Assembly: GCF_019931145.1 (NCBI RefSeq)
Contig: NZ_JAIOUV010000006.1
Span: 124,001-188,000 of the forward strand
DNA length: 64,000 bases
Direction of reading: 5' to 3'
Source: Marinicella meishanensis
GTDB lineage: Bacteria > Pseudomonadota > Gammaproteobacteria > Xanthomonadales > Marinicellaceae
Positions 1,801 through 12,749 of this stretch are shown one piece after another (within the stretch, counting starts at the first letter, position 1; every line of letters begins with the position of its first letter). The notes under the pieces were generated by a model. It did not search any database and was not told the origin of the DNA. It saw nothing but the letters and a program-made list of their open reading frames with translations. The position numbers and the translations under genes are program-made.

Positions 1801-2127
1801 GTTTCCTCCAAATTCAATGGTGTGATGAATCGAAACACTCAGGCTGTGATTTCTAGCCTGTTGTTTCCTGTTTTTCTTCTCGCGTGTCCAGTCGAGCTGT
1901 TCACTGTTCATCAAAGTGTTCTTGGGTGGTCATTCCTCTCACTTCGATTTCAAAAAAAGTGCCATTGGCTGAATAGTTATGAATTCATGATCAGATGATT
2001 TTGGTTTAAGTGGTGAGATGAATGGTGATTAAGCGACACAACATATTCAGTTGCCGGGTGATGGGTGCTGATTCAAATAGGCTCACAAACACCTGGCTTA
2101 ATCATTGCAAAAATTGTGGAGGTCAAT
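1801..2127. other. Divergent intergenic region
   Basis: About 330 bases separate the divergent lipoprotein gene and metzincin protease gene, so both promoters should lie here. Ribosome binding sites are clear at each end (GGAGG before 1800 on the minus strand, GGAGGT before 2128). I see no convincing -35/-10 pair, repeat or RNA gene, and the short ORFs across it look like chance. Confidence 0.5.
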
Positions 2128-3351
2128 ATGAAAGTGTTTGTTTCCTGGTTTATCATCCAGTGCTTGATTCTGGGCGCTGTTATTTCGCCTGCTTCAGCCC
2201 AAAACAACCAACACAATCTGAGGTTTTTGCACCATGCAAATGCGGTGTTATCCGATGCAGATGCAGAGACCATTGCTGCATCTGCCACTTCGGTTCTGGC
2301 CACCGACAGTGGTGAGCATGACGTGCCATGCCCAGTAACGATCAATAAAATCGGGCCAGTTAATTCGTTTCCAAACACCGATGGCGTCATTGACAATGCA
2401 ATGGAGTTTTTTCTGGTGCAACAGGTCAGCGGCCATGTGAAAGTGGTTCGGGCCATCAATTGGTGTGAGAAGACTGGTGCCGCATACTTGGGCTGTGCCA
2501 GCATGCCTGGTAATTCTTTGGCCATGGTGAGGTTTTCTCCAGATCAAGATGGCATCTTGATGGCCCATGAGTTTGGACACAATCAAGGATTAGACCACAG
2601 GTTGGGCGAATTTAATTTGATGGATAAATCAATTGGACCCACAAGAGTCGGTATCAATCATCAAGAATGTGACGCATTCAAAGGAGATGCCGGAGGAGAA
2701 GGCCATGCCGAGTCACCGGTTGCGGGTGCTGTGGCTGAGCCTGAAACCGACACCATGACTTTGATCAAGACGCATTATTTCCATGGCTTTCCAGTGGCAG
2801 AGGGCAAAAATATCCCCAAAGAAGACGCCGCAATGATCATTGAGCTTTTGCATGATGAAGGTGAAAAGCAATGGTGGCCCAATGCTTTGGCCGCCTTGGG
2901 TCTGATGAATTCAGAACAATCGTTCCAAGCCATCACGGATTTCATGGAACAGGCGACCAGCGATGACTTCAAGGATCCTTTGGTTTTCAGGGCTTTGGCG
3001 ACCGCGCCGATCGCCCTGGGGTATTATGTAAACGTGTCTCAAGACCAACAAGCCCTTAACTACATGGTCAATGCAGCCACGCCTGAACGCATGACCAAGA
3101 ACACCGAGTTTCGGAACATGTTGGCAATTGATAATACGGACACTTCAGCCTTGGCAGGCAGCTTTGTGGCTGGTTTGTCACTGGCCGTGACCGAAGGCGA
3201 TGGGGCACTGGATGCATTGCAAAACATTCGCTTGGAAGTCCAACCAGATCAATTCCCCATATTCGACCAACTCGACCAATCCAAAATCGAATACGAGCGG
3301 GTCAAAGAACTGGGCCTAGAGGCTTATCGCTCGCGCAATGATGACAATTGA
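2128..3351 (+). CDS. Secreted metzincin-type zinc metalloprotease
   Basis: The 407-residue product starts with a Sec signal peptide (cleavage probably after the ASA near residue 24). It contains the zinc-binding motif HExxHxxGxxH as HEFGHNQGLDH at residues 147-157: His147, His151 and His157 would bind zinc and Glu148 would be the catalytic base. A following NLMDKS is a plausible Met-turn, which places it in the metzincin clan. The C-terminal half (roughly residues 210-400) is helical and unassigned. The frame is open further upstream, but the ATG at 2128 has GGAGGT in front and begins the signal peptide. The substrate is unknown. An extracellular or periplasmic peptidase role is inferred from motif and export signal. 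Confidence 0.85.
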   Translation: MKVFVSWFIIQCLILGAVISPASAQNNQHNLRFLHHANAVLSDADAETIAASATSVLATDSGEHDVPCPVTINKIGPVNSFPNTDGVIDNAMEFFLVQQVSGHVKVVRAINWCEKTGAAYLGCASMPGNSLAMVRFSPDQDGILMAHEFGHNQGLDHRLGEFNLMDKSIGPTRVGINHQECDAFKGDAGGEGHAESPVAGAVAEPETDTMTLIKTHYFHGFPVAEGKNIPKEDAAMIIELLHDEGEKQWWPNALAALGLMNSEQSFQAITDFMEQATSDDFKDPLVFRALATAPIALGYYVNVSQDQQALNYMVNAATPERMTKNTEFRNMLAIDNTDTSALAGSFVAGLSLAVTEGDGALDALQNIRLEVQPDQFPIFDQLDQSKIEYERVKELGLEAYRSRNDDN

Positions 3352-3384: not shown

Positions 3385-3418
3385 TTTGTGATTATTAAAC
3401 TGGCGTAATAATCACAAA
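3385..3418. promoter_or_regulatory. 13-bp perfect inverted repeat
   Basis: The arms TTTGTGATTATTA (3385-3397) and TAATAATCACAAA (3406-3418) are exact reverse complements around an 8-nt loop. It lies 34 bp after the protease stop and 66 bp before the next gene. No T-run follows on the plus strand, so it is not a classical terminator. It could be an operator for the downstream cassette or a transcript-end hairpin. Confidence 0.5.
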
Positions 3419-3483
3419 GAAAAACCATATTAATGTATTGGAGTATTGTGATATTATTTTCAAAAGTGTGAAAGGAGGGAATT

Positions 3484-4272
3484 ATGAATGTAAAAATTGA
3501 AAGGGTATTGACCAGTGAAAAAACTCAAACTGCATTGGTTGTTTGTGCGGTTGTGTTGTTTTTTACACCCTTGTTAATCAGCTTGGTAGGCTTGATTCCA
3601 AATGAATATGAATTCCCCAGGGAATTGGCCAATGTATTATTGAATTCTGCCCAGCTTTCAATTGTGATCTTTTTCATTTTGGCGATCATGGCCAATATCA
3701 GACTGAAAAACACGGATGTAGCGAGTATTTCCAACACCATACCATCCTTTTTTCAAAGTGGTTCAGAATTTGAAAATCTCGATATCAGATGCCTCAATAG
3801 CCGACAGTTCATTGATCAAATTAAGAATGCTGATGTGAAGATCGACAAGCTAAGAATTATCATGAGTTCTCTTGAATCAGTCCAAACATTTTATTGTGGC
3901 CATTTGAAGGATTCTCAGAACAAAACAGGTTTGGTGACATGTGAAAAATTTGCTCATAAAGAAATTAAAAAGAACAGAGAAACGGCAGAGAAACAAATCA
4001 AAGGACTGATGAAGCAAAATAAGATCGCCAGCTGCGAAATTTATGAAATTGACTCTTTTTGTCTGGACTTTTTTTGCGTGCTTAATAATGGCAAGAAAGC
4101 CATGGTCGGGCGTTATTCACCTGACATCAGTCGAGAAGACCTGATTGGTTTGTCTTCCAGATGTTGGTTAGAGGACTTGCCTGCCAGGAAAAATGAGCTG
4201 GCCAAAGACTTCAACCTGCTTTGGACATCCTTATCCAAACACAACGCTGCAAAAAAGGTAACCACAGATTGA
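3484..4272 (+). CDS. Two-TM membrane protein with cytoplasmic domain, unknown function
   Basis: The 262-residue protein has two hydrophobic segments (about residues 17-40 and 56-75), followed by a soluble C-terminal domain of about 180 residues containing a Lys/Glu-rich helix (KFAHKEIKKNRETAEKQIKG) and several cysteines. A strong ribosome binding site (AAAGGAGGG) precedes the ATG. The stop codon TGA overlaps the TTG proposed as start of the next gene. This suggests translational coupling with the GrpB-like gene. Base composition here and through about 6980 is clearly AT-richer than neighbouring genes. No family is recognised. The topology suggests a membrane-anchored sensor or scaffold for the cassette, which is inference only. 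Confidence 0.75.
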   Translation: MNVKIERVLTSEKTQTALVVCAVVLFFTPLLISLVGLIPNEYEFPRELANVLLNSAQLSIVIFFILAIMANIRLKNTDVASISNTIPSFFQSGSEFENLDIRCLNSRQFIDQIKNADVKIDKLRIIMSSLESVQTFYCGHLKDSQNKTGLVTCEKFAHKEIKKNRETAEKQIKGLMKQNKIASCEIYEIDSFCLDFFCVLNNGKKAMVGRYSPDISREDLIGLSSRCWLEDLPARKNELAKDFNLLWTSLSKHNAAKKVTTD

Positions 4273-4796
4273 GCAGTGTTTTTGAAAAGTTAAATCGAAA
4301 GATAGAGATTCTTGATTACGATCCTGCTTGGATTGATAAATTTGAGCAAGAAAAGCAAGTCATTGTCTCAGGCATTGATGATCTGCAAGTCATGCACTTT
4401 GGCAGCACATCTGTTAAAGGCATGCCAGCTAAGCCGACCATAGACATTGCAGTTGGATACAAGAATCAGGCAGAACAATCAGGTTTGGTGAAATTCCTGA
4501 TTAATTTGGGTTATGTACATGAACCAAGACTCAAAGAGTTCATGCCAGATCGTGATTTTTTTTGGAAGGGAACTCCTACAAAGCATGAATTTCATATTCA
4601 CCTGGTTAGTTTCAATGGTGAAACATGGAATAATTTCAAATCATTCAAAAATTTGCTTAGTGAAAATCCAGATGCAGCGAAGGAATATGCCAAGCTGAAG
4701 AAAAGTTTGGTTAAGAAAAATGACCACGACATCACTGCTTATGTGGATGGCAAGTTAGACCTTTTTCATCAACTGCTCGAGCAATCAAAAAAATGA
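4269..4796 (+). CDS. GrpB/UPF0157-family predicted nucleotidyltransferase
   Basis: The 175-residue product matches the GrpB (COG2320) pattern. An N-terminal YDPAW and FEQEK region is followed by the nucleotidyltransferase-like HFGSTSVKGMPAKPTIDIAV, and the C-terminus carries a helix with YAKLKKSL. The family has a nucleotidyltransferase fold, but its substrates are poorly known. The start is uncertain: no ATG exists near the N-terminus. The TTG at 4269, with an AAGG upstream and overlapping the preceding TGA, fits family length, while another TTG at 4221 would extend into the upstream gene. Its stop overlaps the ATGATG start of the next gene. In this cassette it may add a nucleotidyl group to a small molecule or sugar that the neighbouring enzymes modify. 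Confidence 0.85.
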   Translation: MSSVFEKLNRKIEILDYDPAWIDKFEQEKQVIVSGIDDLQVMHFGSTSVKGMPAKPTIDIAVGYKNQAEQSGLVKFLINLGYVHEPRLKEFMPDRDFFWKGTPTKHEFHIHLVSFNGETWNNFKSFKNLLSENPDAAKEYAKLKKSLVKKNDHDITAYVDGKLDLFHQLLEQSKK

Positions 4797-5758
4797 TGAA
4801 GGTTTTGATTATTGGCGGAAGTGGTATTAACGGCCATTACCTGGCGCAAAGATTGGTGTCTGTGGCTGATGTTTATGCGTTGGGAAAAGATGCACCATTC
4901 CAGCGCGTAGCGGGGGTGGAATACATCAATCAAGACCTCAATTATATTTCTTCCTCTGAGTCAGAAGCCCTGGATATTTTAAACACGGAATTTGAATGTG
5001 TGATCGATTTATGCCAATACGATGTACATGACGCAAAGAGAAACCATGATCTATTTGGTTCTCGCTGCCACCATTACATCGTGGTCAGCACAACATTGGT
5101 TTATGACAGAAGAAATCTGCAAGAACAACAGCGGATTTCAGAAACCACCCCCAAAGCGGCTTTGGGTCAATTTGGTGGATATGTTGATGGCAAGATCAGG
5201 GTTGAAAATTTTTGGGAGCAGATCAGAGACACGAATTGGACAATATTGAGGCCGTATCACATACTCGGCAAAGGTTCTTTGTTGGGTTGCCTGCCCCTGC
5301 ATAATCGAGATCATACACTGATACAAAACCTGCAAAATCATCAGCCGCTGACATTGTGTGAGCATGGACAAATTCAATCCACTTTCATCCATTCAAAAGA
5401 CATCGCAGAGGCAATTTTTCGCCTGATTGGGGAGCCCAAATCTTTCATGCAGAAATTCAATTTAACTCACAACAGCTCTTATCCAGCCGTTGAATACTAT
5501 GAATGCATTGCTGATATATTGAATGTGCCGCTTCATATCAAGAATATGTCAAGAAAAGTTGTCTGGGAGTCTGGGTATGGGTGGGAAATGACCACGTTTA
5601 ACCACCAGTACAACTCAGATAAATTGTATGGATTGATTGGGATTGCTCCCCAGTACCACTTGGAAAAATCATTGGCAGAGATTATTCAGTTTAAGCATTT
5701 TTTTGAAACAGATGTTCACAACAAAATGAATTTATTGCCACAACCTGAGTGGTGTTGA
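4793..5758 (+). CDS. NAD(P)-dependent epimerase/dehydratase family protein (extended SDR)
   Basis: This 321-residue protein has an N-terminal Rossmann motif GGSGINGHYLAQ (residues 8-19), a second strand ending VYALGKD, VIDLCQYD as the next core segment, and VSTTLVYD as the Ser/Tyr-region equivalent. This pattern fits the NAD-dependent epimerase/dehydratase family, close to atypical SDRs of the CSP41/isoflavone-reductase type rather than classical GalE, because the canonical YxxxK is not evident. The ATGATG start overlaps the upstream TGA by four bases (ATGA), so translation is probably coupled. The substrate is unknown. A nucleotide-activated or sugar substrate is inferred from the GrpB-like neighbour. 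Confidence 0.8.
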   Translation: MMKVLIIGGSGINGHYLAQRLVSVADVYALGKDAPFQRVAGVEYINQDLNYISSSESEALDILNTEFECVIDLCQYDVHDAKRNHDLFGSRCHHYIVVSTTLVYDRRNLQEQQRISETTPKAALGQFGGYVDGKIRVENFWEQIRDTNWTILRPYHILGKGSLLGCLPLHNRDHTLIQNLQNHQPLTLCEHGQIQSTFIHSKDIAEAIFRLIGEPKSFMQKFNLTHNSSYPAVEYYECIADILNVPLHIKNMSRKVVWESGYGWEMTTFNHQYNSDKLYGLIGIAPQYHLEKSLAEIIQFKHFFETDVHNKMNLLPQPEWC

Positions 5759-5762
5759 CAGG

Positions 5763-6566
5763 ATGAGGCGATTTAATTTCATCCTCATTACACTGGACAG
5801 CTGTCGCTGGGATTCTTTTGAGTTGGCCGATACACCATTTTTTGATTCAACCGGTTTTTTCAAGAAAGCACATTCTCAAGCCACATACACGATGCCATCT
5901 CATTTATCCATGTTCAGTGGCATTTTTCCTCATGTTGAGGATCGAATTCCATATTACAACAGGTTCGAAAAGAACTTATTGTGGCTCGTGGAGCCAAGAA
6001 AAAACATTGAAGCATTGATTGATTTTGAAAATTGTCCCAAAGACATGATTGAAGGTTTTGGACAAATGGGTATGGATACAGTGGGTGTTGGTGCCATGCA
6101 GTGGTTTAAATCTCCCATTTTGACTGAAGGATTTCAACAATTTAACTACACAGGAATTCATGCCAGACAGCAAATTGAATACTTAATGAAATCCATTACA
6201 AACGATAAGGCTTTTTTTCATATGTTGAACTTAGGAGAGACTCATGACCCATATGAGTTTGGCGGCCAAGTCAGTCATTCAAATGAAGCCAGATATAAGA
6301 TGAGAAATCAAGTTGATGTGGGTTTTGACCAGGCTTCATTCGATAAGCAGATTGAATCTGTTCATTTTCTTGATGGTGTGGTTGAGGAATACCTGTCTTT
6401 TGTTGCGAGGACATCAGAATTTCCCAGTATCGTCGTGATTTGTTCAGATCATGGTGAGTGTTTTGGAGAAGATGGCATGTATGGACACGGATTTTATCAT
6501 CCAAAAATCATGGAAGTGCCTTTGGCCATATTCAAAATCGAAAATGGAAAAATCAAATCCATATGA
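5763..6566 (+). CDS. Sulfatase-fold (alkaline-phosphatase superfamily) hydrolase
   Basis: The 267-residue protein carries the superfamily metal-site signatures. ILITLDSC gives Asp12 near the N-terminus, TMPSHLSMFSG places Thr43 where sulfatases have their catalytic Cys or Ser, and CSDHGE (Asp229-His230) forms the second metal site. With Thr instead of Cys no formylglycine can form. A phosphodiesterase or phospho-group transferase is therefore more likely than a true sulfatase. The protein lacks a signal peptide or TM segment and is shorter than most relatives (400-550 residues), so it probably acts in the cytoplasm. The ATG lies 4 bp after the upstream stop, in the same tight operon. It loosely recalls the STM4013-type sulfatase-like proteins. 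Confidence 0.75.
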   Translation: MRRFNFILITLDSCRWDSFELADTPFFDSTGFFKKAHSQATYTMPSHLSMFSGIFPHVEDRIPYYNRFEKNLLWLVEPRKNIEALIDFENCPKDMIEGFGQMGMDTVGVGAMQWFKSPILTEGFQQFNYTGIHARQQIEYLMKSITNDKAFFHMLNLGETHDPYEFGGQVSHSNEARYKMRNQVDVGFDQASFDKQIESVHFLDGVVEEYLSFVARTSEFPSIVVICSDHGECFGEDGMYGHGFYHPKIMEVPLAIFKIENGKIKSI

Positions 6567-6678
6567 AAAATTTAACCAGCACTTCAGATCAGTTTTCGCT
6601 GATTGATGACCGATTGGAGTCGAAGGGGAAGTGGAACAGAGCTGAAAGTCAAAAATTAAAATTATGAGGTAACTAACC

Positions 6679-6978
6679 GTGAACAAAGAGAAGGCAATGG
6701 AAGTGATCATGGAAATCGAATCTGTATTCAAGAACGCTTCAAAAGGTTGGAAGAATGAAGGTGCGTTGAAGGAATTGAAACAGTTATTTATACAACTGAA
6801 TTCATTGGTTGGCTCCGATATCTATCTTTCAGAGAAGAGTTCGAGTGCAGTTGAGCAATTGGGCATTATTTTCAGTCAACGTAGACATCAAAAGTATGTA
6901 AATGGCGTAGATAGTGTCATTCACAATTTCAATGTGGATTTATCAAATCTAAAAAGTTGGATTAACTCCCAGTGCTGA
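6679..6978 (+). CDS. Small helical protein of unknown function
   Basis: A 99-residue charged, mostly helical product (EKAMEVIMEIESVFKNASKG at the N-terminus) with no signal peptide or membrane segment. The start is a GTG at 6679 preceded by a GAGGT. It sits 112 bp after the sulfatase-fold gene, shares the AT-rich composition of that cassette and may be its last gene. No family is recognised. Confidence 0.6.
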   Translation: MNKEKAMEVIMEIESVFKNASKGWKNEGALKELKQLFIQLNSLVGSDIYLSEKSSSAVEQLGIIFSQRRHQKYVNGVDSVIHNFNVDLSNLKSWINSQC

Positions 6979-7101
6979 AAGAGGTTTTGTAATTATTCTG
7001 ATGGATTTTATTCAGACGATACAATGGTGTGATTTTATGTTTCACTTTGTGCCGTATACATTCCATTCACATTAATTACCTCCATCCACAAGCCGATTCG
7101 G

Positions 7102-7107
7102 TATAAT
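7102..7107 (+). promoter_or_regulatory. Candidate -10 element
   Basis: A consensus TATAAT lies 34 bp before the ATG at 7141. No good -35 at 16-18 bp spacing is visible, the nearest being TTACCT at 7076 with a 20-bp spacer. The ribosome binding site is AAAGGA at about 7127-7132. Confidence 0.35.
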
Positions 7108-7140
7108 CGTTGGCTCTTCTTCATTTAAAGGACTAAATCC

Positions 7141-8769
7141 ATGATGATTCGTTTGGTTTTGTTGCTGTCTTTGTGTGGGGCGTTTGCGGTGCAGGCACAG
7201 CAGTTTGTGATTCATGAGTATGAGAAGTTGTATCCCAATTATGGGAGTACTTTGCGCTTGGTGGATTTTAAGGATGGCGAGGAGTTGGCGACATTTGGGC
7301 CGATTGAGAGCCGGACGATGAAGCCGGCGTTTTATGACTTTCCGCAGTTGGACCATTATTTGTTGCTCACCGATCAGAAGCGCAAGAAGACCCGTATTTA
7401 TGTGTTGGAACGAGACACGCTGGCTGTCAGGAAAGAGGTCAATATCGAGCGTTTGACCATTGAGACCAGGGATTTGGCTTCGGACTATTTTTTCCGCTTG
7501 GTCAATGACGGCAAATCGCTGGCCGTGGTGTTGGGCAAGCCAAACAAGAAAGAGTTGGTGTTGTTTGATACCCTGAATTATAAGCAAACCGCCAGTTTTC
7601 CGATCAACAGCAAGTATTCGGTGGCTGAGCTCAGCGATGATGGGCGTTTTGTTTATTTTAAGGACAACAATTTTTCCAGCCCGAAAAGTTCGCTGGTGGT
7701 GGTTGATTTGGCGCAAGAAAAGGTACTGCCTCGGATCAAGCATGGCCGCGGGGAAACCGTGGTTCACAGCTTCAAAAATTACTTGTTGATCAGTCGCAAA
7801 ATTCTTTTGTCGGAGAAGGACACCACCCGCTATGCGGAGCTCAAAATTTATGATCTGAAGAAGGATGGTGCCCAAGTGGCTGAGCGCATCCTCAGCGACC
7901 GTGAACAGCAGTTTGTTGAGTGGGATGGGGGAGAGCAACTGTTGATCGCCAACCGCACCCGCAAGTCGCCCAGGAACATCGAGTTTTACCTGTTGGGCGA
8001 ACAAGGCTTGAACAAACACCAGGTGCTGGATGTGGACGTGAAGTTGAATGACATGTGGTTTGATGCCGAGTCCAAGCGGATGTTATTGAGTGGTAAAGAA
8101 AACATGGCCTTGGTTGATGCCAATGATTGGTCGGTTCAATTGAACAGAAACCTGCCTTTCAATGCCGAAATGGGCCTGCTTAACTCCGCGGGCGACAAGG
8201 CTTTTTTGGTCACCAATTCGGGCACCCGCATGCACATGTTGGATGTGGCCAATAACCGCCTGGTGAATGATCTGGGTATTGGCTCAAGCGCCAAACGGGC
8301 GGGTAAGATTTTGGGCAAATCGTTGTTGATCGTGGTGTCCTCTACGGTGGGCGGCATTGTGCCAATTCCCATGTCAAGAAAGGGCATCGGCATGCTGTTC
8401 AGTCACCAAGAAAACAAACTGTTCGTCCACAACCGAGCGACTCAGGACATCACGGTGTTTGATGCGGTAGATTTCGAGGACAAATACAACATCACCGACA
8501 TGAAACACGTGATTGGGTTTTACAAATACAACGACGGCAAAACACCCACCATCAACTTCACCGACATGACCACCACCTTGGTCGATGCTGTCAGTGGTGA
8601 AGTGATCAAGGAAATTGAGCATGATGAGCTCATGGGTTTTGAATCCGACAAAAAGTGGTTTGTGGTGAACAAAAACAGCCGCGCCCTGCTGTATTCAAGC
8701 GAAACCGGTGAAAAGCTGGCATCCATCAAATCCCCCCTGGGGAAAGAAGCCTTTTATGTGGGTGAGTGA
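7141..8769 (+). CDS. Exported beta-propeller-like protein of unknown function
   Basis: The 542-residue protein has a short Sec signal peptide (cleavage after VQA, about residue 19), so it is periplasmic or secreted. The rest is a regular series of beta-strand blocks of about 45-60 residues, each ending in a turn such as DDGRFVYFKD, DVANNRLVNDLG or SSETGEKLAS. This is typical of YncE/WD40-like propellers. No catalytic motif is recognised. Propellers of this kind often act as binding platforms. AAAGGA precedes the ATGATG start. It appears to be a single gene, with its own upstream region of about 160 bp. Confidence 0.75.
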   Translation: MMIRLVLLLSLCGAFAVQAQQFVIHEYEKLYPNYGSTLRLVDFKDGEELATFGPIESRTMKPAFYDFPQLDHYLLLTDQKRKKTRIYVLERDTLAVRKEVNIERLTIETRDLASDYFFRLVNDGKSLAVVLGKPNKKELVLFDTLNYKQTASFPINSKYSVAELSDDGRFVYFKDNNFSSPKSSLVVVDLAQEKVLPRIKHGRGETVVHSFKNYLLISRKILLSEKDTTRYAELKIYDLKKDGAQVAERILSDREQQFVEWDGGEQLLIANRTRKSPRNIEFYLLGEQGLNKHQVLDVDVKLNDMWFDAESKRMLLSGKENMALVDANDWSVQLNRNLPFNAEMGLLNSAGDKAFLVTNSGTRMHMLDVANNRLVNDLGIGSSAKRAGKILGKSLLIVVSSTVGGIVPIPMSRKGIGMLFSHQENKLFVHNRATQDITVFDAVDFEDKYNITDMKHVIGFYKYNDGKTPTINFTDMTTTLVDAVSGEVIKEIEHDELMGFESDKKWFVVNKNSRALLYSSETGEKLASIKSPLGKEAFYVGE

Positions 8770-8857: not shown

Positions 8858-9523
8858 GTGAATGATACGCTCGAAAAATTCCTCAAATCATATGCCAAGA
8901 CGCTGATTCTATTGGCAGTGGTCATGTTTTTCTTGTCTGGCTGTGGCTTGACTGCAAAGTACAAGCAATATCCTGACGGTGTTGCTGAGACGTTAGCGTT
9001 TGAATACATTGAAGGAAACCAATACGAATTAAGGCAGGCAGTGGCTTTTACACGCCATGGTGTTGAGCCAGCGCCTGAAGTTATGCTGGAGCAAGCAGCG
9101 CACAATGCAGCATATGAAGTGTGTGGCAGTTTCAGAGCCATCAAGTGGATTCAATTTGAATATTCCGTAACACCCTCTGTTTCGAAGGACTCCATCTACA
9201 AGCATCGGGAGTTGATGCAGTCCAAATTCGCCTGTTTGCATGTCGATGAAGCATATGAATATGGCATGAGGAAGACATTCATAGACAACCAAACCATGGA
9301 GGTCATCATGATGGCCTATGAGGTTAACTTTGATGAGGGTTTTGACATTGCGAAGTTTTTGGAAGATGAATTCAGTTTTCATGCCCATGCCTTTTGTGAG
9401 ATCAAAGGGGGCATTGATAATGTTGACTATGACTTGAATGAGGGCGTGCTTGAGTATTCTGCGCCTCAAAGGTTTGGACTGGATGTGTTCAGTTTAGAGG
9501 GTTCTGTCAGTTGTGGTGAATAA
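8858..9523 (+). CDS. Putative lipoprotein of unknown function
   Basis: The 221-residue protein starts at a GTG. A hydrophobic segment at residues 15-28 ends in the lipobox FLSGC, so Cys29 is the likely lipidation site after a longer than usual n-region. The mature domain has four conserved-looking cysteines (VCGSF, KFACL, AFCEI and VSCGE), which suggests disulfides in the periplasm. No family is recognised. A 17-codon ORF ends 3 bp upstream, and tiny ORFs follow directly after the TAA, so it may head a small operon that continues to 11405. Confidence 0.7.
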   Translation: MNDTLEKFLKSYAKTLILLAVVMFFLSGCGLTAKYKQYPDGVAETLAFEYIEGNQYELRQAVAFTRHGVEPAPEVMLEQAAHNAAYEVCGSFRAIKWIQFEYSVTPSVSKDSIYKHRELMQSKFACLHVDEAYEYGMRKTFIDNQTMEVIMMAYEVNFDEGFDIAKFLEDEFSFHAHAFCEIKGGIDNVDYDLNEGVLEYSAPQRFGLDVFSLEGSVSCGE

Positions 9524-9547
9524 GTGTCTGATAAATCGAAAATTATC

Positions 9548-9637
9548 ATGCAGGAGCAATTAAGGGTGAGTATGACTTTAAAAATTTGGGGTTTGCTATT
9601 TGTTTACTCCCTGCACAAGCTGGTCAATGGGGATTGA
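9548..9637 (+). CDS. Possible very small membrane peptide
   Basis: A 29-codon ORF (ATG at 9548) encodes MQEQLRVSMTLKIWGLLFVY followed by SLHKLVNGD. A GTG at 9524, directly after the previous stop, would extend it to 37 residues, and an ATG at 9572 would shorten it to 21. The central LKIWGLLFVYSL is hydrophobic enough for a short membrane helix. Its TGA at 9635-9637 abuts the ATG of the next ORF, which is the main support that it is translated. Confidence 0.35.
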   Translation: MQEQLRVSMTLKIWGLLFVYSLHKLVNGD

Positions 9638-9802
9638 ATGATGCTGTTTTATGTGTTGTTGATTGCTTGTGCCATTCCTTTGGTGTTTTTGTTGTTTGAC
9701 TTTTTTAATCAACACAAAGCAAACAAGGAAAAAGAAGCGGTTAGTTCGGCCCCGTTGAGTGATTCAAAACAACAGTCTGAAGAAAAAGGAAGTGATGGTT
9801 AA
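9638..9802 (+). CDS. Small single-TM membrane protein (54 aa)
   Basis: The ORF starts ATGATG directly after the TGA of the preceding tiny ORF. It encodes a hydrophobic helix (YVLLIACAIPLVFLLFDFF) followed by a charged tail rich in Lys, Glu and Ser. A single-pass inner-membrane topology with a cytoplasmic tail is inferred. Its stop overlaps the start of the next gene by eight bases, with the ribosome binding site AAGGAAG of that gene inside it. This is consistent with one polycistronic unit. The family is unknown. Confidence 0.55.
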   Translation: MMLFYVLLIACAIPLVFLLFDFFNQHKANKEKEAVSSAPLSDSKQQSEEKGSDG

Positions 9803-10184
9803 AGATCCAGTCAATCCTTCTAGGGCAGAGCTGCGACAATGGGCTTATGATGCTGAGGCGATGGAGCCGATGCAGGACTTTGATTTGTTAGTGGTTCTTT
9901 TGGGGCTCAATGATCTGGTTTTGGCATTTGCGGCGGATGATCAATGCCCCAAGCAAAGGTACTTTTTGGCATGTGCTTATTTGATTGTTGGGGATGCGGT
10001 CCGCACTGAATACCGCTCAGAGAGTCGAGATTACATTGACCAATTCCTGGCCGATGCCGGCAATACGCAACATCCCAAGCTGTTGGAGTTGGTCAATCGT
10101 TCTGCGGCCTTGATCGCTGATCCTGAATCATTTGATTATGATGATTGGTGTTGTGGTGGTTTGGCCAGGCGTTCAGAGGTTTGA
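9795..10184 (+). CDS. Uncharacterised cytoplasmic protein
   Basis: A 129-residue acidic protein without signal peptide. The frame extends upstream to 9759, but the ATG at 9795 is preferred because AAGGAAG precedes it. The central part (QRYFLACAYLIVGDAV, then a helix with LELVNRSAALI) is helical and could be a small repeat-type fold. It overlaps the small membrane protein upstream by 8 bp, and the TonB-domain gene starts 3 bp after its stop. A shared role in the envelope with these neighbours is inference. No family is recognised. Confidence 0.65.
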   Translation: MVKDPVNPSRAELRQWAYDAEAMEPMQDFDLLVVLLGLNDLVLAFAADDQCPKQRYFLACAYLIVGDAVRTEYRSESRDYIDQFLADAGNTQHPKLLELVNRSAALIADPESFDYDDWCCGGLARRSEV

Positions 10185-10187
10185 GGT

Positions 10188-11405
10188 ATGGCAATGATTG
10201 AAAACAAAAAGGGCATCTTGATGATTCGTGGGTTTTTCTTGGCTTTGTGTGGTGGCTTGTTGTTGTCAAACAGCGTTTGGGCTGAGTTGGCCACGAACAG
10301 TGAAGCGAAGCCACTTGAGACCTTCGCGCCTGATTACCCTTTGGAAGCCTTGTTGGATGGTCAGTCGGGCCGGGTTGAATTGTTGTTGAGCATTGATGAG
10401 CAGGGGGATGTGGTTTGGGTGGAGGTGGTTGATGCCGAGCCTGCTGGGGTGTTTGAGGGGGCGGCTGTTGCTGCCAGCAAAAAGTATCGCTATGCGCCCA
10501 AATTGGATTTTGGCAAACCGATTCCAACAGAAGCCATGGTGACCATCGAATTTGATCCCGAAGCAGCTAACAAATGGTGGGATCCAGCCGCCATTGAGCG
10601 GTTGCGTCAAAGGGTGCAAGAAATCCCCTATCACCAAGAATGGGTGGTGTTTACCGATACCGTAACGATTGAGTCCGACATCGAGCCAGCAGATGTGCAT
10701 GCGGTCGCTTTGTTGTTTGATGATGACCTGATGGCTCTGAATGTAAAGCCAATTATTTGGGGTGACGAGGAAGCGAGACAGCAGATCCCTGATTTTGCGG
10801 CGCAATTGAACAACATCATCGACGACGTGCGGGCGCAGTATCAAAAATTCCCCGGTGTGTTTCAGCGGTATCATCATATTTTTTCAGCCAGAAACCACCC
10901 GCCGCAGTTGATCAACACCATTGATTCGGTCAATTCAACCAACACCGATAACAACAAAAGCCGCTCTTTTCGCTTAACGATCAATCAAGCCGGCCGGGTT
11001 GAGAAATGGGAACCTTTGACCAATGATCGGCGGTACGATTTTCCCTTCATCAAAGACGATGTGGACCAAGAGCTGTCACAATTGAAGTTCATCCCGGCTT
11101 ACCGAGATGGCCAAGCGGTTGCCAGCACCATCAACATGCATTGGCAAGTCACCTTTATGGAGCCGCGGGCCGTCAAGAAAATTGCGATGGTCAATAACAG
11201 GCACCACTCAATGGCTAGAAGCTGGATCAAAGTTGCGGCCCTGATCAATGAAAATGGCGGGGTGGAACAAAGTAAAGTCATCAAAGCATCGGATGATGAT
11301 TTGATGCCCCTGATGCAAAATTTAATGGACATCCTGATATTTGAAGAACAAGGCCATCTGTCGCAAATCCTGCAAGTGCTGACTTATGGTGGTGATGGGG
11401 ATTGA
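10188..11405 (+). CDS. Exported protein with TonB C-terminal-like domain
   Basis: A 405-residue product if translated from 10188, or 394 from the ATG at 10221, which begins the signal peptide (MIRGFFLALC, cleavage after VWA) and has AGGG upstream. Residues of about 50-125 fit a TonB_C domain: YPLEALLDGQSGRVELLLSI, then the helix-strand EGAAVAASKKYRYAP. A second similar strand pattern occurs near FRLTINQAGRVEKWEP. The N-terminal TM anchor and Pro-rich linker of a true TonB are missing, so it is a TonB-like periplasmic protein of unknown partner rather than an energy transducer. It ends the run of closely spaced genes that begins at 8858. Confidence 0.75.
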   Translation: MAMIENKKGILMIRGFFLALCGGLLLSNSVWAELATNSEAKPLETFAPDYPLEALLDGQSGRVELLLSIDEQGDVVWVEVVDAEPAGVFEGAAVAASKKYRYAPKLDFGKPIPTEAMVTIEFDPEAANKWWDPAAIERLRQRVQEIPYHQEWVVFTDTVTIESDIEPADVHAVALLFDDDLMALNVKPIIWGDEEARQQIPDFAAQLNNIIDDVRAQYQKFPGVFQRYHHIFSARNHPPQLINTIDSVNSTNTDNNKSRSFRLTINQAGRVEKWEPLTNDRRYDFPFIKDDVDQELSQLKFIPAYRDGQAVASTINMHWQVTFMEPRAVKKIAMVNNRHHSMARSWIKVAALINENGGVEQSKVIKASDDDLMPLMQNLMDILIFEEQGHLSQILQVLTYGGDGD

Positions 11406-11424
11406 TGGGTTCAATCTATTGGAG

Positions 11425-11442
11425 CGTGGACTTGAGTCCACG
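11425..11442. repeat. Palindromic repeat, family A copy 1
   Basis: CGTGGACTTGAGTCCACG, preceded by TTGGAG. The same 18-bp palindromic design with adjacent GGAG or CTCC recurs at 11573, 13853, 14054, 17181 and 20932, in both orientations. Confidence 0.75.
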
Positions 11443-11526
11443 ATATTCGCTGAGTCTTCATTCATACCATGAATTCGCTACGATTTAGAAATCCGGCTTT
11501 GGGTATTTATAGACTGATGAAAATGG

Positions 11527-11550
11527 GTCCCCGGGTCAAGCCCGAGGACG
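11527..11550. repeat. Imperfect palindrome of dispersed-repeat type
   Basis: A GC-rich imperfect inverted repeat, CCCCGGGTCAAGCCCGAGG plus flanks. It has the same CGGTCAAGCCG core layout as a hairpin near 49270. It lies between family A copies 1 and 2 in a gene-free stretch. No function is evident. Confidence 0.45.
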
Positions 11551-11572
11551 ATGGGTTAGTATACATTTGGAG

Positions 11573-11590
11573 CGTGGACTTCAGTCCACG
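11573..11590. repeat. Palindromic repeat, family A copy 2
   Basis: CGTGGACTTCAGTCCACG preceded by TGGAG, same family as 11425. It lies 83 bp upstream of the small secreted-protein gene. Confidence 0.75.
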
Positions 11591-11673
11591 TGATTGTTGC
11601 GGGCAGCTGATGTCTGCCGATGAAGTCAAAGGGGTCAGAGTCATTGATTTAAAATGTAACTTAAGGAATCTCT

Positions 11674-12060
11674 ATGAAAAATTTGATCAGCATCATAATA
11701 TTTTTATTGTTGTCATTTGTGGTTTCAGCAAAGTCTGAGACGGATGGTTCTGAATCACCGCGGGTTTATAAAGTCACCCGTGAGCAAATGATCAGAAGTG
11801 AGATTCCTCCAGAACACGGGTTTCGTGTGTTCGCGACAGGTCTTCCGTTCACAAACGGGGATGAGACATTCGAAGAAATTATTAATAAAATCAATAAGAC
11901 AGACAATAAAATTTTAAAACAGTCTGAAGAGGTGTTATTGGTTCAAAGTTATGACAAAGACTTTGCCACTGGAGAGTTGAGCCCAGGTTTTAAAATTCGA
12001 TATGAGTTTAAAGATGGAAAGTTGGTTAGAGGGCCTGTTTTACATGATTCTGAGGAATGA
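11674..12060 (+). CDS. Small exported protein of unknown function
   Basis: A 128-residue protein with a Sec signal peptide (hydrophobic LISIIIFLLLSFVV, cleavage after VSA, about residue 19). TAAGGA precedes the ATG. The mature part is charged, contains a short Asn/Lys-rich helix and ends in a beta-rich segment (GFKIRYEFKDGKLVRGPVL). No family is recognised. Its base composition is AT-rich compared with neighbours. Confidence 0.65.
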   Translation: MKNLISIIIFLLLSFVVSAKSETDGSESPRVYKVTREQMIRSEIPPEHGFRVFATGLPFTNGDETFEEIINKINKTDNKILKQSEEVLLVQSYDKDFATGELSPGFKIRYEFKDGKLVRGPVLHDSEE

Positions 12061-12075
12061 GATTATACTCAATAG

Positions 12076-12237
12076 ATGATTTCGTTTAGGAAAACCTCGA
12101 TTGAAACCATTGCTGAACTTTCGATTTTTCTCACCAAACCAGTTATTATCTTCCAGTTTTTGTTTGGCTTTATACGCTTCATGCTGCTCAATCCCATCCT
12201 TACAAACCGCGTTTCCTCAGGGCCCAGGTCAACATGA
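12076..12237 (+). CDS. Possible small membrane ORF
   Basis: A 53-codon ORF from an ATG at 12076, with a hydrophobic stretch of about 25 residues, ends in a TGA that overlaps the ATG at 12234 (ATGA). No good ribosome binding site is visible. It may be spurious: the hydrophobic segment could instead be a decayed or frameshifted signal peptide of the 12234 gene, because the other frames here also encode hydrophobic stretches. Confidence 0.25.
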   Translation: MISFRKTSIETIAELSIFLTKPVIIFQFLFGFIRFMLLNPILTNRVSSGPRST

Positions 12238-12749
12238 GCAGCCAATCATACAGTCATCGAGGCATGGTGGCCGAGTTCAGAGTCACGGATGCAACCATTG
12301 AGATTGATGTGCGCATCAAGGGCTGGGTCAGGCGCAGGCATTATCAACTGGTGTTCCATGCCAGTACGACGGATCAACTCAGGTCGGCTTTGCTGTCTGG
12401 TTTGGATGCGTCGTCTTATCAGGAGTTGGCCGACAATTGGATGGTCAAAGTTGAGAATGTGAGCTGGCGGATGTTTGGTTTTCACCGAACCCATCGCTTT
12501 CCTGAACCGGTTGAATTCCCTGTGTTGGCTTATGCCGATGAAATCAGTCTGATGGGGATGAAGCAAAAGAAATCTCGGCCTCAAACGCAAATCACCGATG
12601 CTTTTATCGGTCACCGCAAGGGTGAAAAGTACCTGTTGTTGCGGGTGGGTCGGTATGTTTCGTCAGGCATTGGAAACAACAGTGGCAGCACGCCAGACAC
12701 GGCGGTGATGCCTTTGAGTTTGCTTAATGGGTTGTTGAAAGTGCTGTAG
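12234..12749 (+). CDS. Uncharacterised protein
   Basis: A 171-residue protein translated from ATG 12234, with beta-rich segments (FRVTDATIEIDVRIKGWVRR) and a helical middle. The start is uncertain. The same frame is open for about 115 bp upstream and would encode VFVWLYTLHAAQ, which looks like the end of a signal peptide, yet no start codon is visible there. A lost or frameshifted export signal is possible. The C-terminal part contains GEKYLLLRVGRYVSSG. No known domain is recognised. Confidence 0.5.
   Translation: MSSQSYSHRGMVAEFRVTDATIEIDVRIKGWVRRRHYQLVFHASTTDQLRSALLSGLDASSYQELADNWMVKVENVSWRMFGFHRTHRFPEPVEFPVLAYADEISLMGMKQKKSRPQTQITDAFIGHRKGEKYLLLRVGRYVSSGIGNNSGSTPDTAVMPLSLLNGLLKVL

Follow-up and report, generated by a model that had tools for sequence, protein, structure and literature searches.

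The window analysed here is a stretch of 64,000 nucleotides from Marinicella meishanensis (contig NZ_JAIOUV010000006.1, positions 124,001 to 188,000), and our subject is a cassette of five plus-strand open reading frames (ORFs) at 3484-6978 of the window, which lies behind an inverted repeat. The best-supported unit within it consists of a protein with two transmembrane segments (TM protein) and an enzyme of the alkaline phosphatase superfamily (HYD), together with a nucleotidyltransferase-like (NTase-like) partner. This arrangement is found in two genomes, the second from another phylum. The reading we favour, and hold tentatively, is that the cassette was acquired laterally and encodes a membrane-anchored module for making and breaking phosphodiester bonds, the substrate being a small molecule or a glycan precursor.

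The first four genes are translationally coupled. The gene for the TM protein (3484-4272, 262 residues) encodes two transmembrane segments followed by a C-terminal alpha/beta domain, as judged from the ORF calls, hydrophobicity and a structure model. Its stop codon overlaps the TTG start of a GrpB family gene (4269-4796, NTase fold) in the sequence TTGA, and this gene in turn overlaps that of an extended short-chain dehydrogenase/reductase (SDR; 4793-5758, 321 residues) in the sequence ATGA. The gene for HYD (5763-6566, 267 residues) follows after a gap of 4 bp. The fifth ORF (6679-6978, 99 residues, GTG start) is an orphan, taken from the ORF list and its composition. It is separated from HYD by 112 bp and is therefore not coupled, and its membership of the cassette is uncertain. 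An earlier reading, made from the letters of the DNA alone (the sequence-only reading), had described these overlaps and the 4-bp spacing, and the ORF positions confirm them. It had also recognised a two-TM protein, a GrpB, an SDR and a sulfatase-fold enzyme, all of which are upheld by the hydrophobic segments and by matches to PF04229, PF01370 and PF00884 respectively.

The HYD active site

HYD matches the Sulfatase family PF00884 at 42.6 bits (cut-off 25, E 6.3e-11). Six residues, D12, T43, H161, D229, H230 and H242, are invariant in all 35 aligned rows, and they occur in what we take to be the order of the MCR-1 ligands. The nucleophile position is Thr (T43 in HYD) in every row, in agreement with the proposal in the sequence-only reading of a metal hydrolase with Thr as its nucleophile.

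The AlphaFold model of HYD has a mean pLDDT of 81.9. In structural comparisons, where rows within 1 Z were counted as tied, the best match was EptC (4tn0; Z 17.7, root-mean-square deviation (rmsd) 3.6, 215 residues aligned), and other matches were EptA (5fgn; Z 16.9, rmsd 3.2, 211 aligned), a sulfatase (6hhm; Z 16.7, rmsd 3.9, 225 aligned) and NPP (7mw8; Z 15.3, rmsd 3.1, 193 aligned). Matches to EptC, EptA and MCR span Z 16.2-17.7 at 11-17% identity. These three are phosphoethanolamine transferases, and share with HYD a Thr nucleophile and acidic and His metal ligands in the same order; the DHGE...GHG segment of HYD aligns to the family models. They differ from it in having a membrane-embedded N-terminal domain, whereas HYD is shorter and has no TM segment, and HYD scores only 20.6 bits against a phosphoethanolamine transferase family model with a cut-off of 500. 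No hydrophobic TM-like segment was found in HYD, GrpB, SDR or the 99-residue protein, and HYD is probably cytosolic. Its active-site pattern is that of phosphoethanolamine transferases and NPP phosphodiesterases, and an activity of this type is predicted.

HYD also matches NF038075 (STM4013/SEN3800) over residues 4-257 with 90 bits (E 1.7e-25), which is below the curated cut-off of 250. The members of this family, like HYD, are small stand-alone enzymes of the superfamily with Thr in the nucleophile position. Their loci in Salmonella and Streptomyces carry annotated STM4011 and STM4012 radical SAM genes and STM4014, but the five cassette proteins and the two flanking proteins match no radical SAM family.

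The PF00884 match might be taken to mean that the cassette removes sulfate, with HYD acting as a genuine carbohydrate sulfatase. Sulfatase folds trail the top structural match by only about 1 Z, and sulfotransferase and APS genes are found near some HYD relatives. However, all 35 aligned rows carry Thr, and not Cys or Ser, as the nucleophile, so that formylglycine cannot form and formylglycine sulfatase chemistry is untenable for HYD. HYD moreover has no hydrophobic segment, and this explanation is very improbable.

The TM-HYD pair and its possible function

The two hydrophobic segments of the TM protein are at about residues 13-41 and 47-76. Neither this protein nor the 99-residue protein matches any family in Pfam or NCBIfam above its cut-off. 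A VIA-align comparison of the model of the TM protein placed MITD1, phospholipase D (PLD), TrmB/TrmBL2, Tdp1, SauUSI and FAM83B in its top rows (Z 4.7-6.3); these are PLD-fold proteins. With low confidence, the soluble C-terminal half may therefore be a PLD-like domain, which we call inactive because the HxK(x4)D catalytic motif is missing in both TM proteins that were found.

The second of these came from a survey of loci. A scan of genome contigs with the HYD alignment gave 102 relatives, from which 80 loci were kept. The cassette proteins were compared by tblastn (E <= 0.01) with 97 loci that surround relatives of HYD or of the SDR (L003-L100 minus L014), of which L003-L013 span only 1.5 kb per side, some contigs being cut. 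The TM protein has a single match, 32% identical over 241 residues (E 7.8e-38), on a contig (L022) of a Halodesulfovibrio metagenome-assembled genome (MAG). The homologue (L022:4836-5681) is followed after 0.3 kb by a HYD homologue (5983-6792, 42% identity), which overlaps by 8 bp an NTase-like ORF (6785-7645, MTPAP-like in Pfam), all on the same strand. Each of the two TM genes found thus adjoins a HYD gene, and an NTase-type gene stands in each of the two rows. The SDR has matches in four of the 97 loci. Two of these were fetched via the SDR itself and two were judged unrelated, namely those near HYD in the Myxococcota (L089 and L091), which are 23% identical, on the opposite strand and accompanied by hydrolase ORFs of about 500 residues. 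Another locus, L021, was considered as a third case of the arrangement and set aside: its NTase-like ORF, which Pfam does not match at E <= 0.5, was picked by eye (GS...SDLDL).

GrpB is a clear member of its family (PF04229, 136.5 bits against a gathering score of 25.5, E 1.2e-39; PDB 2nrk, E 6.2e-20). It retains residues common to three plasmid homologues, including G44-S45-T46, K49, K54, D58 and H110 (P0007 numbering). PMC7288161 places GrpB among NTase-fold proteins. In M. tuberculosis the GrpB/UPF0157 family forms a fusion with dephospho-CoA kinase, and a role in folding is reported there (PMC2765170). No assigned reaction for a stand-alone GrpB was found in the open-access literature. Here the protein sits in an operon with the TM protein, SDR and HYD. 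GrpB is common on plasmids, and the coupled operon, whose membrane protein and phospho-enzyme recur beside an NTase-like gene, is a concrete small system in which a GrpB substrate might be identified. The SDR matches Epimerase PF01370 at 39.8 bits (cut-off 20.9, E 4.5e-10) and retains the GxxGxxG and YxxxK motifs, so that its NAD(P) site and catalytic pair are apparently intact.

The function that we tentatively propose has the TM protein, HYD and an NTase-fold enzyme as its operon core. The NTase-fold protein, which would be GrpB here and a member of another family in Halodesulfovibrio, may attach a nucleotidyl or phosphoryl group to an acceptor, which would be a small molecule or a sugar. 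HYD, as a cytosolic enzyme with a Thr nucleophile, would then transfer or remove a phosphodiester-linked group. The TM protein could tether the reaction to the membrane's inner face, with the product as the candidate ligand of its inactive PLD-like domain. In this genome the SDR may oxidise, reduce or epimerise the sugar moiety, if it and GrpB do act with the TM-HYD pair. The end product would most likely be a small molecule or a glycan precursor in modified form.

The surroundings of other HYD relatives are in part consistent with such a role. Ten ORFs near HYD relatives were picked by eye for family testing, of which one (in L024) had no match. Among these eye-picked ORFs, Sulfotransfer_3 genes occur in three of the nine closest HYD loci, those of the relative G121 (L138), L023 and L025. 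An ATP-sulfurylase/APS-kinase gene is found in L029, an APS kinase in L030, and a carbamoyltransferase together with an integrase in L021. The sequence-only reading had suggested a small-molecule or glycan role for the cassette, and what support there is for this comes from the Sulfotransfer_3, carbamoyltransferase and APS genes near some HYD relatives. On the plasmid pTi-SAKURA (L015:7986-13311) the HYD relative is accompanied by an AAA kinase, an HprK-like kinase, an MFS transporter and a PLD-like protein. This PLD-like protein is weakly like DrmC, and the annotated start of the HYD relative is later than homology suggests.

A number of results weigh against the proposed function. No glycan-making gene is present inside the cassette, and EptC is ahead of the sulfatases by only about 1 Z. 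The AlphaFold model of the TM protein is poor (mean pLDDT 50), and its best Z, 6.3, is of a size that common arrangements also give. Foldseek gave no match to it at E <= 0.001; its listing was headed by MITD1, with most of the others being RadA/Rad51 at low TM-scores. The TM-HYD pair is known from two genomes only, one of them a MAG. The L022 NTase is only weakly NTase-like, its best Pfam match (3.9e-4) scoring 21 bits against a cut-off of 27, and hhalign found no similarity between it and GrpB (probability 0.1%), so that the two cannot be treated as one family. A clade of the hydrolases from the window, L021 and L022 was likewise unsupported, the deep forks of the tree being open. Finally, neither GrpB nor the 99-residue protein was found in any of the 97 loci, and the SDR is missing from the other HYD loci checked. 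The suggestion of the sequence-only reading that all five genes form one pathway is thus unsupported beyond this genome.

The surroundings of the L022 genes suggest a different function. SIR2 (1.2e-166) and HerA (6e-252) genes lie upstream and a DUF4297-like gene (3.9e-21) downstream, and the cassette might accordingly be an anti-phage or conflict system, in which the NTase-fold protein makes a nucleotide-derived signal that HYD would edit or destroy, while a change in signal level would lead the TM protein, through its cytosolic PLD-like sensor, to disrupt the membrane. We consider this rather unlikely. The rare distribution of the TM protein is in its favour, as is a type IIG restriction-modification (R-M) gene in the Marinicella genome, outside the window, which ends 5.1 kb upstream of the TM gene (L119:14565-18401, which is C12:118565-122401; 36% GC). 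This gene has a PADLOC match of 6.7e-247 and the domains DUF7149, DUF7814 and Eco57I. It is nevertheless weak evidence for defence, because strong PADLOC matches are also obtained in a control of 100 ORFs from the same genome (28 families at E <= 1e-40, each with two members at most), so that a single defence gene some 5 kb away counts for little. Furthermore, no cassette protein has a good PADLOC match, the best being E 0.0041 for GrpB and 0.012 for the TM protein. Other HYD relatives have neighbours of a glycan or sulfation type, one relative lies in a viral contig, and to our knowledge an SDR has no place in signalling systems with two-TM (2TM) effectors.

Such effectors do bear some resemblance to the TM protein. 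As described in PMC12657218, OptE and Cap15 of the Panoptes and CBASS systems have two TM segments and a soluble domain and are encoded next to a nucleotide-handling enzyme, as in the cassette. Their soluble domains are beta-barrel, CARF or SAVED, whereas that of the TM protein looks PLD-like, in a weak model. No CD-NTase or mCpol match was found in the cassette proteins at E <= 0.1 with the 2023 PADLOC library, which may lack newer systems. An alkaline-phosphatase-superfamily protein, PglZ, is described as a core part of BREX in PMC12839542. A more specific immune module, with GrpB as the signal maker, HYD as the phosphodiesterase that degrades the signal and the inactive PLD-like domain as the sensor, and with NTase families that swap between phyla, seems distinctly improbable. 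If a defence function were true, nucleotide-based immunity would gain from the cassette a synthase, an eraser and a sensor fold that are all new.

Adjoining both the TM-HYD-NTase genes and SIR2-HerA in L022 are His-Xaa-Ser genes (9093-12557), which are HxsD- and HxsA-like, just below the NCBIfam cut-offs, with two radical SAM proteins.

Composition, distribution and acquisition

Composition was compared with an own-genome sample of 360 kb in 18 stretches plus the rest of the window. The GC content of the cassette is 0.393, against a mean of 0.519 (standard deviation 0.033) in 720 own-genome windows of equal length, only 10 of which are as low. Ranked by GC at third codon positions (GC3) among 250 ORFs, the five genes all fall in the lowest 1.6-5.2%, compared with 9% for the left flanking gene (2065-3351) and 62% for the right (7141-8769). 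A codon-usage index ranks the cassette genes at 5.2-8.4%, close to the left flanking gene (9.6%) and well below the right one (32%); the codon contrast on the left is therefore slight. The five genes had been described as richer in A/T than their neighbours, and this is borne out: GC and GC3 differ from those of the flanks, whose equality would have counted against a transfer.

The distribution of the genes was examined in 398 phylum genomes and 369 class genomes, which are two partly overlapping samples, and in 151 relatives that include the Marinicella genome itself. The TM protein was found in this genome only, both in the phylum sample and in the class sample. A fragment in G629 (67 of 281 positions, with one internal stop and no other support) was rejected as a chance match. 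No homologue of it was found in plasmids, phages or viral contigs. HYD has matches at E <= 1e-3 in 24 of the 151 relatives, of which only that in G121 is close (40% identity). At E <= 1e-35 it occurs in four class genomes, the own one (1e-123) and three others (2.6e-43 to 2.3e-40) at 26-30% identity. The SDR is restricted to the own genome among the 151 relatives at E <= 1e-10, and at E <= 1e-12 is found in six of the 398 phylum genomes, the five besides the own being 25-32% identical; no relative above 32% was found in what was searched. The 99-residue protein has no relative in plasmids or viral contigs. GrpB-like genes, by contrast, are common (224 plasmid records), with no TM protein, SDR or HYD annotated in three plasmid neighbourhoods. 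Plasmid GrpB genes (L139, L141) lie beside aminoglycoside nucleotidyltransferase or macrolide resistance genes.

The complete five-gene combination was not found outside this genome. The sequence-only reading had proposed a neighbourhood search for joint occurrence, and had regarded separate occurrence in most relatives as contrary to its proposal. GrpB and the SDR do occur separately, and none of the 97 loci joined GrpB, SDR and HYD. The TM-HYD pair with an NTase-like gene recurs once, in L022.

Lateral acquisition, as already proposed in the sequence-only reading, is supported by the composition of the cassette together with its scarcity in relatives. Among 18 genus genomes the upstream flanking gene is present in the own genome only. 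The downstream one is present in five at E <= 0.001, the own included, and the other four copies are 20-25% identical. Because both flanking genes lack genus orthologues, an empty site cannot be shown in the genus.

These data also bear on a doubtful explanation, namely chance assembly, in which the TM protein and HYD are a functional pair and GrpB, the SDR and the 99-residue ORF are hitchhikers in an acquisition hot spot. For the SDR and the 99-residue protein the searches turned up no partner elsewhere, and GrpB travels on many plasmids without the other cassette genes in the three neighbourhoods examined. In addition, a second AT-rich stretch (34-40% GC), which contains the R-M gene, lies upstream at C12 about 118000-124000, outside the window, and is separated from the cassette by DNA of 45-48% GC. 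Against this explanation, the coupling of TM, GrpB and SDR genes, the 4-bp gap to HYD and the matching composition speak for one transcription unit under selection.

The operon leader and other observations

A perfect 13-bp inverted repeat had been reported in front of the cassette and is indeed present (arms 3385-3397 and 3406-3418, with a loop of 8 nt), as found by repeat search, DNA pattern search and folding. None of 200 shuffles of the 61-nt region around it folds as well (z -5.4). Perfect 13-bp arms with a loop of at most 12 nt occur at three places in the 360-kb own-genome sample and at two in the window, this one and 26505. There is no T-run 3' of the repeat, which is also missing from the terminator scan list for the window, and a role as terminator was rejected on the latter ground. 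A promoter was rejected as well, promoter-like sites being no commoner in the leader than in shuffles (8 against a mean of 10.4). No tRNA gene lies in the window, and no Rfam family reaches its gathering score there. The repeat is a putative operator or RNA hairpin in the operon leader.

On a viral contig of 189 kb (L142:7977-9475), a HYD relative with 31% identity overlaps a second ORF that has no Pfam match, in surroundings where the ORFs look virion-like by eye. The two are possibly a phage-encoded modification pair.

Elsewhere in the Marinicella genome, the sampled stretches L116-L133 include a DpdF-like protein (1.9e-242), hinting at a deazaguanine-type defence cluster. Within the window, downstream of the cassette, a lipoprotein-like ORF at 8858-9523 has a very weak match to KwaB (DUF4868, E 0.0044).

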